From an uncultured Clostridium sp. (GTDB lineage Bacteria > Bacillota > Clostridia > TANB77 > CAG-508), in assembly GCA_948435735.1 (NCBI GenBank), contig CAOJGX010000006.1:1-47676 (forward strand): a stretch of 47,676 bases of DNA, written 5' to 3'. Numbering within the stretch: position 1 is the stretch's first letter; every line of letters starts with the position of its first letter. A model generated the notes under the pieces. It was not told the DNA's origin. It was given only the letters and a program-made list of their open reading frames with translations, and ran no database searches. This document shows positions 996-33,219 of the stretch, piece after piece. The position numbers and the translations under genes were made by a program.

Positions 996-1376
996 ATGGT
1001 CAGAATATCGGATGCAGAATTAGAAGTTATGAAAATTATATGGAAGGAAAAAGAAGTAACGTCTTTAGAAATTATAAAAAAGTTAGAAGATTGTAATTGG
1101 AATGATAATACAATTAGAACGCTAATTAATCGACTAATTACTAAAAAAGCAGTGGGAATATCGAAAAAAGAAGGGAAGACGTATACGTATGTTCCATTAA
1201 TAAAAGAAAATGAATACAAGGTAAAAAGAAGTATAAATTTTGTAAAGCAGTTTTATAATGGCTCTATAAATGAGATGATGTTAAATTTTATAGATGCAAA
1301 AGAAATGTCAAAAGAAGATTTACAATATTTGATGGATAAAATTGATAAAAAGAAGAGAAAAGGAGGGGATGAATAA
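996..1376 (+). CDS. BlaI/MecI-family transcriptional repressor
   Basis: A 126-residue protein with the typical opening MVRISDAELEVMKIIW and a winged helix-turn-helix over about residues 5-75, including the NTIRTLINRL recognition helix region. A C-terminal helical dimerisation part follows. Length is normal for the family (about 120-130). It is followed at once by an M56 metalloprotease gene, the usual partner: the sensor protease triggers cleavage of the repressor. BlaI/MecI control beta-lactam resistance genes, but no beta-lactamase or PBP2a is in view, so the regulon is not known. The ribosome site is GGGGGG (983-988). Confidence 0.9.
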   Translation: MVRISDAELEVMKIIWKEKEVTSLEIIKKLEDCNWNDNTIRTLINRLITKKAVGISKKEGKTYTYVPLIKENEYKVKRSINFVKQFYNGSINEMMLNFIDAKEMSKEDLQYLMDKIDKKKRKGGDE

Positions 1377-2743
1377 TATTTCAAGAATTGATAGTAAATG
1401 TGTTTTTAAGAATAATTTATATGTCAATTATTGGGACAGTAATTGGTTTGGTAATTTTGCTGTTAAGAAAAAAATTGAGTAAATGGATTTCGCCAAAATG
1501 TTATGCTATGATATGGCTGGTGTTTATTATTGCGTTAATTTGGCCAGTTCCAATTCCAAGTAGAATTAGTGTTTATAACTATTTTGATGTTGAAAAAGTA
1601 AAACAAAGTGAGAAGCAATATGCAAATGATGTATTGAGTTTATCGAATGAGGAAAACGGACAGAATGAAGAGATAAAATTAAAAGAGAAGATTAAGTTTA
1701 ATTATGAAAGCATGGGTAAAAACTATTTGATATATATTATTTCAGACATTTGGTTTATTGCGTTCTTGCTATTGCTAAGTAGAGTGATTTACCAATATGG
1801 AAGAGCGATTTATTTAACAGGAAATCTTGAAATAGAAGACGAGAGAATCAATAACATATTAGAAAAATGTAAAAAGAAGTTAAAGATTAAAAGGAATATA
1901 AAGTTAATAGAACAGTATGAAATACAAAGACCGTGTACGATGGGAGTTTTTAAAGTAAAGATTTTCTTGTCGGATAATATGTTTGATATGGATGAAATTT
2001 GCCTAACAGATATTTTTATGCATGAATTATCGCATTACAAGAGGAAAGATAATTTGTTAAATGTATTTATTATGTTTACTAAAGCGGTGCATTGTTTTAA
2101 TCCAATTATTTATTTTGGTTTAATGAATTGCTTGAAAGTAGATATGGAACTTGCGACAGATGAAATGGCGATAGAAAATTTAGGGCAAGATGAAAGAGAT
2201 GAATATTCAAAGATAATTGTAGATGTAGCAAAGATTGAAAGTTCAAAATTCGAAGCAGTGCTTGGTTTATCGGAAGATGTGAAGATTTTAGGGAAAAGAA
2301 TTGATATGATATTGATGAAAGATGAATTTGAGAAGCATACGAAATTGATTATGAGTTTTACAATGTTAATCGTGATATTGATGTGGTTAGTATTGTATCC
2401 GACTTCTTATGGAATGTTTGGAGTACCTAGTTTGTATTTGGAGATGAGTGATGGAAGTGTGATTGCGGTGAAGAGAGTGGAGGATAAGGATGAGAGATTT
2501 ATAAAAACAATAAGTTTGAGTAAAGGTGAAACTTTAAGATTGGTTGTTGAAGGAGGGCGTTGTGAGGATTATGTGAGTTTTTGTAGAACGAATTTAGAGG
2601 ATATGAATAGTAATGTTGAAATAATTGATATGAAGAGAGATACAATTAAATATTTTCTAGAAGGAGAATATATTTATAAATTTAATTTAAAATATGGAAA
2701 TCATAAAAGTGCAGATTATGAAATAAAAATTGTGGTGGAATAA
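1376..2743 (+). CDS. BlaR1-like M56 family membrane metalloprotease
   Basis: A polytopic protein with membrane segments near residues 10-30, 45-60, 115-135 and 330-350. The zinc site is HELSH at about residues 212-216, followed by ELATDEMAI, the typical third-ligand region. The extracellular C-terminal part (about 110 residues after the last membrane segment) is much shorter than a penicillin-binding sensor, so the ligand is probably not a beta-lactam. Start choice: the first standard in-frame codon is TTG at 1388, 19 bases past the GGAGGGG site (1362-1368). The non-standard ATA at 1376 has ideal spacing, overlaps the repressor stop (TAATA) and would give the family-like start (M)FQELIVNVFL. 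Confidence 0.85.
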   Translation: MFQELIVNVFLRIIYMSIIGTVIGLVILLLRKKLSKWISPKCYAMIWLVFIIALIWPVPIPSRISVYNYFDVEKVKQSEKQYANDVLSLSNEENGQNEEIKLKEKIKFNYESMGKNYLIYIISDIWFIAFLLLLSRVIYQYGRAIYLTGNLEIEDERINNILEKCKKKLKIKRNIKLIEQYEIQRPCTMGVFKVKIFLSDNMFDMDEICLTDIFMHELSHYKRKDNLLNVFIMFTKAVHCFNPIIYFGLMNCLKVDMELATDEMAIENLGQDERDEYSKIIVDVAKIESSKFEAVLGLSEDVKILGKRIDMILMKDEFEKHTKLIMSFTMLIVILMWLVLYPTSYGMFGVPSLYLEMSDGSVIAVKRVEDKDERFIKTISLSKGETLRLVVEGGRCEDYVSFCRTNLEDMNSNVEIIDMKRDTIKYFLEGEYIYKFNLKYGNHKSADYEIKIVVE

Positions 2744-10505: not shown

Positions 10506-11327
10506 ATGGACAATTCATTAAGTAAAGCATTGATTATGGTTGGCAGTGTATTGTTAGCAATGATTGTAATGGCATTTGCAGCCCATGCTTTCATGAAAAT
10601 TGGGGGCTGGGCTACTACACAAGATGACGAAGTCTTGATTGCACAAAAAGAGGAATTTAATAGAGAATATGAAGTTTATGATAAAAACTTAATGTATGGA
10701 GTGGATGTTATTTCTTGTTTGAATAAGGCTTTGAGTAATAATGAAAAAATAACTAATAGAAGCGTTGTAAATGGGAATACATATGATGAGACTTATGAAG
10801 TTAAAGTTAAAGTTACTTTAACGAAAACAGGTACTAATCAACTTAAACCACTGGAAGAATCTATAACTGTAAGTTATAGAGATAATACAGGAAAGGAACA
10901 TGACTATACTTCAGATGAAGGACCTAAAGATGGTAGTGCAATGGTAAAATTGTCAGACATGAATAGGCAGTTTCAATTTTTAAATAAATCATATAGAAGT
11001 ATAAGTAAATTTAATGGAAATACTAGTTTAGTAACACAAACTGAAACATGTGATAAGTTGAAAAATGTATTTGAATTTAACATAACAAAAGATGGAAGTG
11101 GAACTAATGAAGAGGAAACAAGAGACCTATTATCGCTTGCGGATACAGTATCTGAAACAATCAAGAATACTGATTCAAAAACAAATGCTAAAGGAAAATA
11201 CGAAGGTTGGACGAAAGCAGAATTTAAATCCGCTCTATATGATTTAAAAACAAGAAGATTTAGATGCACAAGTTTGACTTATTCAGACATAGGTAGAGTA
11301 AATTATATAGAATTTGAAGAAATATGA
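10506..11327 (+). CDS. Pilin-like protein 1
   Basis: 273 residues. A short polar start MDNSLSKA is followed directly by a membrane helix (LIMVGSVLLAMIVMAFAAHAFM), like a mature pilin without a leader. After it comes the motif FNREYEVYDKNLMYGVDVISCLNKAL, shared with the next genes as (F/H)NSxFExY...G..V..L...I. The remainder is a beta-rich polar domain. It starts 18 bases after the platform gene with AAAGGAG. It is longer than the others in the set and may be a minor or tip subunit. No prepilin peptidase site is visible. Confidence 0.65.
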   Translation: MDNSLSKALIMVGSVLLAMIVMAFAAHAFMKIGGWATTQDDEVLIAQKEEFNREYEVYDKNLMYGVDVISCLNKALSNNEKITNRSVVNGNTYDETYEVKVKVTLTKTGTNQLKPLEESITVSYRDNTGKEHDYTSDEGPKDGSAMVKLSDMNRQFQFLNKSYRSISKFNGNTSLVTQTETCDKLKNVFEFNITKDGSGTNEEETRDLLSLADTVSETIKNTDSKTNAKGKYEGWTKAEFKSALYDLKTRRFRCTSLTYSDIGRVNYIEFEEI

Positions 11328-11351
11328 ATGATTAGAAATTACCGAAATGTA

Positions 11352-11379
11352 TTGACAAAATAAGAATTTGATGTATAAT
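11352..11379 (+). promoter_or_regulatory. Promoter of antisense RNA A
   Basis: Consensus TTGACA (11352-11357), a 16-base spacer and consensus TATAAT (11374-11379). It faces the convergent peptide gene A, and no plus-strand gene follows before the hairpin at 11452. Confidence 0.8.
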
Positions 11380-11385
11380 TATCTT

Positions 11386-11485
11386 AAGTATGATATATGA
11401 ATGAAGAATATATTGTATAAAAGGATAATTTTGCTTCAAAAAACAAAAAGGAAAAGTAGGTAGCGGTGACTACCTACTTTTCTAC
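11386..11485 (+). ncRNA. Predicted antitoxin RNA A (about 100 nt)
   Basis: The predicted transcript runs from about 11386 to the hairpin at 11452-11481. It holds two segments that are direct repeats of the peptide gene region, hence antisense to its mRNA. TGATATATGAAT (11391-11402) equals 11657-11668 in the peptide 5' UTR. A 17-base segment, 11422-11438, equals 11612-11628 at the peptide start codon. Together with the shared terminator this is the layout of a par/RNAII-type antitoxin. Ends are inferred from promoter and hairpin only. Confidence 0.75.
11452..11481. terminator. Bidirectional terminator of module A
   Basis: A perfect 12-bp stem, AAAAGTAGGTAG and CTACCTACTTTT, with loop CGGTGA. 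The A/T runs at both ends allow termination of the RNA on the plus strand and of the peptide mRNA on the minus strand. Confidence 0.85.
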
Positions 11486-11629
11486 TTAAAAATCGAAGAT
11501 GTTCTTAATTTTTTCTAAAATAGTTAGAAAAAGAATAAGATATTTAATAAAAGTATGTACCCAATTTTTAAGTTTTTTGCCAAACTTAGAAGTAAGTTTT
11601 ATCTTAGGTATAGGATAATTTTGCTTCAT
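11486..11629 (-). CDS. Small cationic/hydrophobic peptide, candidate type I toxin A
   Basis: A 47-residue peptide, too short for usual gene calling. The start is MKQNYPIPKIKLTSKFGKKL; a hydrophobic helix follows (WVHTFIKYLILFLTILEKI) and then KNIFDF. The ribosome site AAAGGAGGTGATAAAT-ATG is very strong. A promoter (TTGCAA, 17, TATAAT) lies about 90 bases upstream on the minus strand. The 5' UTR can form a small hairpin, GCTCA-loop-TGAGC. The basic N-terminal half plus membrane-type helix suggests a pore-forming or membrane-acting toxin. The sequence does not look like Fst, whose hydrophobic part comes first. Toxicity is inference from architecture. Confidence 0.8.
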   Translation of the reverse strand: MKQNYPIPKIKLTSKFGKKLKNWVHTFIKYLILFLTILEKIKNIFDF

Positions 11630-11717
11630 ATTTATCACCTCCTTTCAATAGAAGTGTGATATATGAATAAGCTTCTTGGAAATCTTGCTCAGAACTTGAG
11701 CGGATAAGAATGTACAT

Positions 11718-11746
11718 ATTATAACACATAAAAATAAATTTTGCAA
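11718..11746 (-). promoter_or_regulatory. Promoter of peptide gene A
   Basis: Read on the minus strand: TTGCAA (11741-11746), 17 bases, TATAAT (11718-11723). Confidence 0.75.
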
Positions 11747-11783
11747 TCTAAAAATAAAGTGAATAAAAAATTACCGAAATATA

Positions 11784-11811
11784 TTGACAAAAAGAAAGTT
11801 TGATGTATAAT
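11784..11811 (+). promoter_or_regulatory. Promoter of antisense RNA B
   Basis: TTGACA (11784-11789), 16 bases, TATAAT (11806-11811), as in module A. Confidence 0.8.
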
Positions 11812-11817
11812 TATTTT

Positions 11818-11914
11818 AAGTATGATATATGAATGAAGAATATATTGTATAAAGGGATAATTATCGTTCAAAAAGAACAAAAAAAGTAGGTAGCTGTCAC
11901 TACCTACTTTTCAC
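11818..11914 (+). ncRNA. Predicted antitoxin RNA B (about 97 nt)
   Basis: It carries TGATATATGAAT (11823-11834), equal to 12086-12097 in the peptide B 5' UTR, and GGATAATTATCGTTCA (11855-11870), matching the peptide B start region (12042-12057) at 15 of 16 positions. Against the start of peptide A only 13 of 16 match, so pairing appears tuned to its own mRNA. It ends at the shared hairpin 11882-11911. Confidence 0.72.
11882..11911. terminator. Bidirectional terminator of module B
   Basis: Stem AAAAGTAGGTAG and CTACCTACTTTT, loop CTGTCA. The arms equal those in module A, and the loop differs. Confidence 0.85.
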
Positions 11915-12058
11915 TTAAAAATCAAAGATGTTCTTAATTTTTTCTAAAATAGTTAGAAAAAGAATAAGATATTTGATAAAAGTATGTACCCAATTTTTAA
12001 GTTTTTCACAAAACTTAGAAGTAAGTTTTATCTTAGGTATAGGATAATTATCCTTCAT
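11915..12058 (-). CDS. Small cationic/hydrophobic peptide, candidate type I toxin B
   Basis: A 47-residue tandem paralog of peptide A. It differs at three positions: Gln3 to Asp, and Gly17-Lys18 to Cys-Glu. Most other base changes are silent (for example TTC to TTT in the last NIFDF), which indicates selection on the protein. The same ribosome site AAAGGAGGTGATAAAT-ATG and a 5' UTR hairpin of the same sequence are present. Its promoter lies under the upstream region of the pilin gene at 12202 and points the other way. Confidence 0.8.
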   Translation of the reverse strand: MKDNYPIPKIKLTSKFCEKLKNWVHTFIKYLILFLTILEKIKNIFDF

Positions 12059-12146
12059 ATTTATCACCTCCTTTCAATAGAAGTGTGATATATGAATAAG
12101 CTTCTTGGAAATCTTGCTCAGAACTTGAGCGGATAAGAATGTTTAT

Positions 12147-12175
12147 ACTATAACATATTAAAATGAATTTTGCAA
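12147..12175 (-). promoter_or_regulatory. Promoter of peptide gene B
   Basis: Minus strand: TTGCAA (12170-12175), 17 bases, TATAGT (12147-12152). It lies between the peptide gene and the divergently oriented pilin gene. Confidence 0.7.
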
Positions 12176-12201
12176 TACTAAGTAAAACAGAAAGGAATGC
12201 T

Positions 12202-12756
12202 ATGGAAAATGCAAGTAAAGCCTTAATTATGGCTGGTGGATTGTTGATTTCAATATTAGTTGCTAGTTTCATGATACTTGTTTTAAGAAAAGCAGGAAAA
12301 ATAAATGCAGAATATGATGCACAAATGTCAGACAATGAACTAGCAAGATTTAATAGTCAATTTGAGCTATATGTTCGAGATGATAATACGTTTTTTGATG
12401 TCATTACAGTGGCAAATCTTGCTTATGATATTAATCAGAGAAATGGTTGGGATGAAAGCAATGGTGTTGATGTAAAGATTTATGATAAGGATAGTCCTAC
12501 CGTAATGTACAGTATTTTAGTAACACAAAATGCTTCTAATGAAGGAGGACTAAAAAAAGATTATTTTTTTAAAAAAGAAGATGTTGATGAAGCTAACCAA
12601 GAATACATTTATGGTCAAATTATTTCAGAAAATACAGCTAAAAAAAATGACGATGAATCGGTTTTTAAATATAAATTTGAATGTAAAAATGAAATTAGTT
12701 ATAATGAAATAACTGGAAAAGTCAGAGAAATAAAATTTAGACGTAGAGAAAATTAA
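12202..12756 (+). CDS. Pilin-like protein 2
   Basis: 184 residues from the ATG at 12202, which follows AGAAAGGAATGCT. The in-frame ATG at 12163 has no ribosome site, lies inside the peptide B promoter, and would add residues absent from the paralogs. It opens MENASKALIMAGGLLISILVA, the same leaderless pilin-like helix as at 13322 and 13797, followed by ARFNSQFELYVRDDNTFFDVITVANLAYDIN. The C-terminal domain ends with EISYNEITGKVREIKF, a strand pattern seen at the ends of the sister proteins. Probably a pilus subunit. Confidence 0.7.
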   Translation: MENASKALIMAGGLLISILVASFMILVLRKAGKINAEYDAQMSDNELARFNSQFELYVRDDNTFFDVITVANLAYDINQRNGWDESNGVDVKIYDKDSPTVMYSILVTQNASNEGGLKKDYFFKKEDVDEANQEYIYGQIISENTAKKNDDESVFKYKFECKNEISYNEITGKVREIKFRRREN

Positions 12757-18606: not shown

Positions 18607-18738
18607 ATGAAAGGCAAGCGTATACACAAGAAAAAGAAAAGTAAATTAATGTTACATATAGGCAAAATACTAATGTTAATACTTGATTTGATAAAAACAG
18701 CTCTAGACATTATTAATTACTTTTTTAAATTTTAATAA
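18607..18738 (+). CDS. Small cationic/hydrophobic peptide, candidate type I toxin C
   Basis: 43 residues. The N-terminus MKGKRIHKKKKSK is very basic; the hydrophobic helix LMLHIGKILMLILDLIKTALDIIN ends with aromatic YFFKF. The ribosome site GAAAGGAGGTGGTTAGAT-ATG is strong. The overall design (basic half, membrane helix, aromatic end, 42-47 residues, strong ribosome site, own terminator) equals peptides A, B and D, although sequence identity is low. It is transcribed towards a promoter of the opposite strand at 18815-18842. Toxicity is inferred. Confidence 0.78.
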
Positions 18739-32177: not shown

Positions 32178-32675
32178 ATGAAAATAAAAAAAGTAAAAGA
32201 TTTACGCAAATGTCATTGGCGGAAATTAACGGAACGAGAGTGGGCGGAAGTGCCAATCCATTGGCAAAGATGCTTGTTGAGAAAAAGACTTTTTGTTAAG
32301 AAAAAAGATGTAAAGTGTTTTTTTAGAAAATACTATACCAAAACTGCAAGAGAATTTGGCTTATCTGTAGAAGAAGTTGATGAATTTTTACATGAACAAA
32401 ATCATGTTTTTCACAAGAAGTTGTCAGATTCTGCAAAATGTTCGTTTTTTACCGAAGAATTAAGAATATTAGAAGAGGATTTTTTACAATTGAAAGAACT
32501 ATTAGAGATACCAGTTTTTATTAGTGAGGAGGGGAAGATAGAAAATATTCTTGAGCAGGTTAATCAGTTATCTGACGAAGAAAAGCTGATATTTGCTGGC
32601 GAGATTTGGAAAAATTATTTATATCCCGCATTGAGATGGCAGGAGCATGAAGATATGCGTGAATTTTTCAAATAA
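32178..32675 (+). CDS. Hypothetical protein
   Basis: 165 residues, unrecognised. The N-terminus is very basic (KIKKVKDLRKCHWRKLTEREW), with several Lys/Arg-rich stretches up to about residue 55, then an acidic helical C-terminal half. A nucleic-acid-binding start is possible from charge alone. Own promoter, AGGAGG ribosome site and terminator: a single-gene unit. Confidence 0.65.
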   Translation: MKIKKVKDLRKCHWRKLTEREWAEVPIHWQRCLLRKRLFVKKKDVKCFFRKYYTKTAREFGLSVEEVDEFLHEQNHVFHKKLSDSAKCSFFTEELRILEEDFLQLKELLEIPVFISEEGKIENILEQVNQLSDEEKLIFAGEIWKNYLYPALRWQEHEDMREFFK

Positions 32676-32768: not shown

Positions 32769-32856
32769 GTAAATAAGAAAAATGATTTTATTTATAAAAA
32801 CAAACTTAGTTTAAGAAATACCCAGCAATCAGTGCGATGATTACTGGGTATTTTTT
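32769..32856 (+). ncRNA. Predicted antitoxin RNA D (about 88 nt)
   Basis: It includes AACAAACTTAGT (32799-32810), an exact repeat of 32963-32974 covering codons 4-7 of peptide D, and ATGTAAA (32767-32773, at the predicted RNA 5' end), equal to 32984-32990 between the ribosome site and start codon. It ends in the hairpin shared with the convergent peptide mRNA. Confidence 0.65.
32816..32856. terminator. Bidirectional terminator of module D
   Basis: A 16-base stem, AAATACCCAGCAATCA and TGATTACTGGGTATTT, with one C-A mismatch on the plus strand that becomes a G-U pair in the minus-strand RNA. T-runs on both sides. Confidence 0.8.
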
Positions 32857-32983
32857 AATTTTCTAAGAATTCTAAAATCATGATGATTAGTTTTAATTTC
32901 CATATTTCTAATAATAAATGCAAAAGTTCTAGGATGTCTTTAGGAAATTTTTTCTTTGGTTTAACAAACTTAGTGTTTTTCAT
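32855..32983 (-). CDS. Small cationic/hydrophobic peptide, candidate type I toxin D
   Basis: 42 residues. A basic start, MKNTKFVKPKKKFPK, is followed by the Leu/Ile-rich helix DILELLHLLLEIWKLKLIIM and then ILEFLEN. It has the same plan as peptides A-C. Ribosome site AAAGGAG eight bases before the ATG. A second AAAGGAGGTG lies about 45 bases further upstream without a useful start codon. The 5' leader holds an inverted repeat, AAATGTTTTTA / TTAAAAACATTT. It lies between an unknown gene and hpf, far from the pilus cluster. Confidence 0.72.
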   Translation of the reverse strand: MKNTKFVKPKKKFPKDILELLHLLLEIWKLKLIIMILEFLEN

Positions 32984-33144: not shown

Positions 33145-33219
33145 GAGTTATTTGATTAAGTTTTGAAATTTCTAATAGGTTGAGGAGAATTTTTAAAATA
33201 AACTTTTTTGAAATACTAC

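Follow-up and report, generated by a model that had tools for sequence, protein, structure and literature searches.

Does a pair of short tandem units in the DNA of an uncultured Clostridium sp. represent two toxin genes, each held silent by an antisense RNA of its own, and what would tie each RNA to its own gene? The window, by which we mean the whole stretch of 47,676 nucleotides that was analysed (contig CAOJGX010000006.1), carries at 11336-12179 two units of about 430 bp, and the layout claimed for them in the original prediction is real: each has a peptide gene, a convergent promoter, a hairpin and two repeats, located as follows.

11486..11629, minus strand: peptide gene of unit A, 47 aa (ATG at 11629, stop at 11486)
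11915..12058, minus strand: peptide gene of unit B, 47 aa (ATG at 12058, stop at 11915)
11352..11379, plus strand: antisense promoter of unit A, TTGACA-16-TATAAT (promoter scan, 12/12 consensus positions)
11784..11811, plus strand: antisense promoter of unit B, TTGACA-16-TATAAT (promoter scan, 12/12 consensus positions)
11718..11746, minus strand: peptide promoter of unit A, TTGCAA-17-TATAAT with TG before the -10 (10/12)
12147..12175, minus strand: peptide promoter of unit B, TTGCAA-17-TATAGT with TG before the -10 (9/12)
11451..11482, no strand assigned: terminator hairpin of unit A, between both transcripts (terminator scan)
11881..11912, no strand assigned: terminator hairpin of unit B (terminator scan)
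11386..11482, plus strand: predicted antisense RNA of unit A, about 97-100 nt (from promoter and hairpin)
11818..11912, plus strand: predicted antisense RNA of unit B with its own start-codon repeat (from promoter and hairpin)
11630..11711, minus strand: predicted 5' leader of unit A with a small 5' hairpin (predicted fold, putative RNA start)
11612..11628, minus strand: start-codon repeat of unit A, the target (sequence comparison)
11422..11438, plus strand: copy of the start-codon repeat in antisense RNA A (sequence comparison)
11386..11402, plus strand: copy of the upstream repeat in antisense RNA A (sequence comparison)

The two peptides are 94% identical, GAAAGGAGGTGATAAAT precedes each of their genes, and both frames have a strong ribosome-binding site upstream. 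The convergent promoters are called by consensus sequence only; a scan of 11200-12300 returns 12 sites against 7.5 expected, and the ten besides the two antisense promoters reach at most 10/12. The terminator scan calls both hairpins on the minus strand (2 versus 0.2 expected). Of the bidirectional terminator proposed for each unit, the shared hairpin stands, while the plus direction is less clean, with the T run inside the 3' arm; judged by their sequence, the hairpins are likely to terminate in both directions. The repeat counts given earlier are right, RNA A matching its own start codon target at 17/17 and RNA B at 15/16, as are the cross matches of RNA A with target B (14/16, or 15/17) and of RNA B with target A (13/16). 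The upstream repeat (11386-11402 against 11652-11668) matches at 16/17, is the same in units A and B, and in the peptide gene of unit A sits 5' of the ribosome-binding site. Peptide mRNA A is predicted to fold at -63.7 kcal/mol (z -5.8) and antisense RNA A at -24.4 kcal/mol (z -5.0), with 0 of 200 shuffles equal in either case, and in the predicted mRNA structure a hairpin that includes the upstream repeat (11652-11668) takes up the Shine-Dalgarno sequence (SD) and the start codon. A consensus fold of the mRNA has two-sided changes in 1 of 66 pairs, and covariation supports it neither way.

We consider it highly probable that both units are chromosomal modules of the type I toxin-antitoxin kind and follow the plan of par (RNA I/RNA II), a layout that the convergent promoters, the hairpin and the two repeats support. 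From this arrangement we infer transcription, silencing and toxicity of the peptides as follows. The minus-strand mRNA would encode a small cationic helical peptide destined for the membrane, and in the fold of its leader the ribosome-binding site and the start codon would be masked by the upstream repeat. A short plus-strand RNA would start at the strong convergent promoter, end in the common hairpin and carry copies of both repeats. This RNA may meet the mRNA first at the terminator loops, after which pairing would spread over the repeats and the start codon and so prevent translation; the repeat at that codon would be the address that ties the RNA to its own peptide, both changing together.

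Convergent promoters, as in units A and B, are described for par of pAD1 (Fst/RNA I-RNA II), Fst-Sm/srSm, Lpt and SprA1. So are a shared terminator, at whose place the units have the common hairpin with a T tail scored on the minus strand only, direct repeats that both RNAs traverse, with a repeat at the start codon as here, and an SD sequestered in a stem-loop, which here is a predicted fold only (PMC7472228, PMC5608710, PMC3543317, PMC8309996). At the place of the upstream helix found at the 5' end of par mRNA, unit A has a small predicted 5' hairpin; among 52 modules of the kind described below, a 5' mRNA hairpin beats 95 of 100 shuffles in 16, units A and B being outside those 16, and by this test, which demanded G+C-rich stems with at least 3 G or C per arm, it is without support as a general feature. 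The ZorO-OrzO/ZorP-OrzP loci of E. coli O157:H7 are tandem duplicated type I loci as well (PMC3919570), yet their RNAs are divergent, whereas those of units A and B are convergent. Within Clostridia, where a review states that few type I toxins have been found by homology searches (PMC6563280), C. difficile has CD0977.1-RCd11 and others, convergent pairs of a small gene and an antisense RNA (PMC6563280, PMC7699646); three of the peptides have 50-53 aa, similar in size to A and B, a likeness drawn from published descriptions. The accounts of these modules report a long overlap of the two RNAs (PMC6563280, PMC7699646), and the term 'direct repeat' is absent from both main texts. A long overlap of this type is not what we find, as the predicted RNA A, taking the ends deduced for it, does not extend past the shared hairpin into the coding region.

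The site itself was thought to lie within a pilus cluster, a view that our search does not confirm: 14 of 20 window proteins are without a Pfam match, both genes flanking the A/B locus among them, and one further protein has a match only under the cut-off. Elsewhere in the window, a gene for a BlaI-type repressor lies beside one for a BlaR1-type M56 peptidase (996-2743, plus strand). The two flanking genes have related N-terminal parts. Matches to the downstream gene (12163-12756) occur in 44 of 53 genus genomes; site occupancy was judged in the 11 of these with the best matches, and in every one of the 11, relatives of both flanking genes stand side by side. A module lies between them in six (G000, G005, G013, G020, G036, G042), and in five (G025, G029, G038, G044, G052) the frames abut within a few bases, which leaves no space for a module; the A/B locus is therefore a chromosomal site that can hold a module or stand empty. 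In G000 and G013 it holds a tandem pair, and a third pair, of another peptide type, is found elsewhere in G036. Peptide A, used as query at E <= 0.01, has matches in 12 of 193 genomes, its own included, a few of the weakest in long unrelated frames; an alignment of 13 relatives at E <= 0.1 reaches 29 of 53 genus genomes, with many weak matches in long frames or across stops. One locus of the own genome (L004 1501-1700, C12:39578-39640) is a decayed copy, having lost the first half of the peptide while retaining the hairpin, a repeat-like stretch and the antisense promoter; DNA that by eye resembles the start of obg adjoins this copy and also intact relatives in L010, L011 and L017.

What kind of peptide do the units encode? 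Peptide A is modelled as one helix over residues 9-46 (AlphaFold2, mean pLDDT 78.7, 8 sequences). Its net charge is +8 and that of peptide B +5, the range over eight peptides of the window type being +5 to +9, and the hydrophobic moment is high, equalled in 2 of 200 shuffles for A and 5 of 200 for B. The helix model, the positive charge and the hydrophobic moment together fit a membrane-acting peptide; most likely, as modelled, A and B are small cationic helical peptides that insert in the membrane. Pfam and NCBIfam assign none of 12 module peptides to a family above cut-off, PADLOC (6 peptides) and PHROGs (7 peptides) yield only one weak PHROG match (E 0.046), PDB sequences contain no match to the peptide, and Rfam has no match over the gathering score in the window. 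Weak matches below cut-off to DUF3930, DUF4535 and DUF4389 (E 0.012-0.033; in 4, 2 and 1 of 13 members) were set aside. Carriage of the peptide by mobile elements was considered and rejected on searches without relatives: none among 517 pattern stretches from viral contigs, four phage matches at E 7 or more, and none in plasmids.

Cationic amphipathic peptides, with charges of +5 to +9 in these eight, could also be useful to the cell in secreted or membrane-bound form, resembling bacteriocins or serving as signals, with an antisense RNA of this kind adjusting their translation; the recurrence in six genomes of a module flanked by the same gene pair speaks for such a role. We regard this as unlikely. 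No transporter or immunity gene appears among the window proteins scanned (14 of 20 being without a Pfam match), published par toxins are silenced at the start codon by way of two repeats (PMC7472228), and the empty site in five relatives indicates that the peptide is dispensable there.

Given a layout and mechanistic features such as those described for par loci (PMC7472228), might the peptides be true members of the Fst/Ldr family that have diverged too far for its profile? The original prediction of a family unlike Fst agrees with the profile searches: PF13955 matches none of the 13 members of the peptide alignment at E <= 0.1 and none of 10 representatives of other peptide types at E <= 1, and against the own genome its best E is 0.129, with nothing over the cut-off. 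Family membership by profile was rejected on these searches. In addition, peptides A and B, inspected by eye, have no PxxxG motif, and their 47 residues are basic in the N-terminal half instead of ending in a charged C-terminal tail. A diverged Fst is thus quite improbable, and the best reading is that of type I modules on the par plan whose peptides belong to new families, newness being judged from the openly licensed literature. Compared with par/Fst, the modules found here carry a peptide outside the Fst profile (47 aa, a basic helix), the plan is used by several unrelated-looking peptide types in one genus, and tandem pairs have separate start-codon repeats.

The same layout recurs within the window, in two modules with shorter peptides.

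18607..18735, plus strand: third module, 42-aa basic peptide, repeat ATGAAAGGCAA at 11/11
18842-18815, minus strand: antisense promoter of the third module
32855..32983, minus strand: fourth module, 42-aa peptide, repeat ACTAAGTTTGTT at 12/12

The third has an unnamed 761-aa frame on one side and a gene for a SpoIVB-type peptidase on the other; the fourth, with promoter TTGACA-17-TATATT (one mismatch), lies between the frame 32178-32675 and an S30AE gene at 33208. The own genome has 145 matches to the promoter; scanning 30 of the 100 listed added no module to those known, and the own-genome count is a lower bound. Among the matches listed are four pairs of perfect promoters set back to back, with -35 boxes one base apart (C1:55475-55533, C2:20868-20926, C3:47438-47496, C30:7549-7607), and near-identical scattered promoters with TTTTATGTAAA between the boxes (C13:21323, C24:1280, C32:8810, C34:7101), perhaps a repeated element or a regulon.

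For a wider view we used a search pattern of promoter, gap and ribosome-binding site that is blind to both peptide and repeat. Across the 53 genus genomes it finds 29 places in 14 genomes with a gap of 196-226 and 27 places in 13 genomes with a gap of 227-257; the reversed pattern finds none in any genome listed in the genus, family and class searches. Outside the genus only the range 227-257 was covered, giving 30 of 292 genomes and 14 of 39 genera in the family and 9 of 291 genomes in the class (own genome and genus included in each). Of 33 family and class places, 11 score at least 10 at the start region; each of these came from the family search and encodes a peptide of 28-34 aa, and 0 of the 12 class-search places reach that score. 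Seven places in other genera of the family (L133, L139-L142, L145, L146), which serve as a contrast set, have the same convergent promoter spacing with membrane-type peptides of 50-52 aa, no repeat match and own scores of 4.0-8.0; these are perhaps another type I class.

Pattern places and homology loci together give 55 architecture-only modules, of which 53 have an RNA body no shorter than 25 nt. L070, L081 and L103, which have no fitting reading frame, were dropped, as were the two modules with shorter RNA bodies; L117 and L118, whose starts are probably misassigned, were kept. The 53 entries are 52 distinct modules, one place (L071) having been entered twice, left in the 53 and removed for the 52-module tests. 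They come from 17 genomes, two of which (G017, G051) contribute only places without a convincing repeat, and the fullest are G005 with 8 modules, G036 with 7 and G052 with 6. By eye, several peptide groups without evident kinship can be told apart: basic, mostly amphipathic peptides of 37-49 aa, themselves divided into several families, and short peptides of 26-31 aa that end in an acidic tail.

Does each RNA then match its own start region? Each of the 53 RNA bodies was compared with the start region of every module, in a set that mixes promoter-pattern and peptide-homology loci and was gathered with no repeat criterion; it supersedes an earlier test with 44 of 50 strictly best, which was circular since the modules had been picked for the repeat. 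The own target is strictly best for the RNA in 42 of 53 modules and the own RNA strictly best for the target in 41. The mean match is 13.53 for own against 6.58 for other pairs, and the summed own score of 717.0 compares with 355.5 under permutation (sd 11.5, maximum 418.0, 20000 permutations). Three control segments of equal length were compared in the same way: +40..+82 in the coding part gives 0 of 53 strictly best (355.0 versus 345.0, sd 7.8) and -110..-68 gives 2 of 53 (408.5 versus 395.4, sd 8.6). The third, -60..-18, which holds the upstream repeat, is strictly best in 5 of 53, yet its sum of 479.0 exceeds all permutations (371.4, sd 10.9, maximum 416.0). Duplex energies average -23.6 kcal/mol for own and -10.7 for other pairs; by this measure the own target is strictly best in 40 of 53, the own RNA for its target in only 30. 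Of the 11 modules whose own target is not strictly best by match score, two are the doubly entered L071, two (L053, L098) lose to a near-identical sister, L117 has the probably misassigned start, L086 encodes another kind of membrane peptide and lacks a repeat, and L008, L054, L082, L091 and L120 are plain misses.

Matching also holds within peptide families. In the window family, tested with seven of its eight units (L009 left out), 6 of 7 are strictly best, and the observed arrangement ranks first among all 5040; it is likewise 1 of 120 in the EEK family, 1 of 24 in the QKKKLKK family, 1 of 20001 (sampled) in the acidic class and 1 of 6 in each of two families of three, while in one family of four 2 of 24 arrangements are as good. 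An obg-side family of two members was left out. The claim that the RNA has changed together with its own target is thus borne out over 53 modules and within families; layout, repeats and matched change are read directly from the DNA of many modules. That local gene conversion or slippage, and not selection for pairing, keeps the repeats alike, the matched change having no regulatory meaning, would suit two copies only about 190 nt apart in units that are 91% alike, but is very improbable, given that the matching is limited to the start region and, less strongly, the upstream repeat, is 0/53 at +40..+82 of the coding part, and recurs in unrelated-looking peptide families.

How far are the sisters of a tandem pair insulated from each other? 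Units A and B, 91% alike over the unit, differ at 2/19 positions of the start target and 4/18 of its RNA copy, against 2/73 in the leader, 5/125 in the rest of the coding part, 0/15 at the ribosome-binding site and 0/36 in the 5' part of the RNA. This concentration is suggestive, not exclusive, because the spacer next to the RNA copy (5/11), the promoter zones (4/29 and 5/34) and the hairpin (4/35) differ too. Own duplexes of A and B are calculated at -29.0 and -23.2 kcal/mol and cross duplexes at -21.6 and -14.3; cross matches fall short by only 2/17 and 3/16, and both units carry the same upstream repeat. The start-codon repeats differ more in the other two pairs, with own values of -24.7 and -18.7 against cross values of -10.7 and -17.8 in G013, where the cross value of -17.8 almost equals the same RNA's own -18.7, and own values of -22.4 and -20.2 against cross values of -15.1 and -7.6 in G036. 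The literature offers examples of either kind: in ZorO/OrzO a stretch of three bases determines the toxin that a given RNA silences (PMC3919570), whereas in C. difficile the interaction tolerates at least 3 mismatches and an antitoxin silenced a non-cognate toxin (PMC7699646). With so few mismatches, a divergence of A and B that avoids cross-talk, as first proposed, is one possible reading. Coexistence of different par loci without interference has already been reported (PMC7472228). In a tree of eight units A and B group with support 80 and the G013 pair with support 69, values too weak to date the duplications.

That the par-type plan is a general chassis, used in this genus to silence several unrelated peptide families with up to 8 modules per genome in the set analysed, and the start-codon repeat a fast-changing address that separates modules even in tandem, is a proposition to which we give an even chance. 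If true, the par silencing plan would not be bound to Fst toxins and would serve many peptide families. The three tandem pairs and dozens of relatives would then be natural sets of sister modules in which change and insulation of an antisense address can be measured, and an unannotated class of small genes would be added to the uncultured Clostridia.
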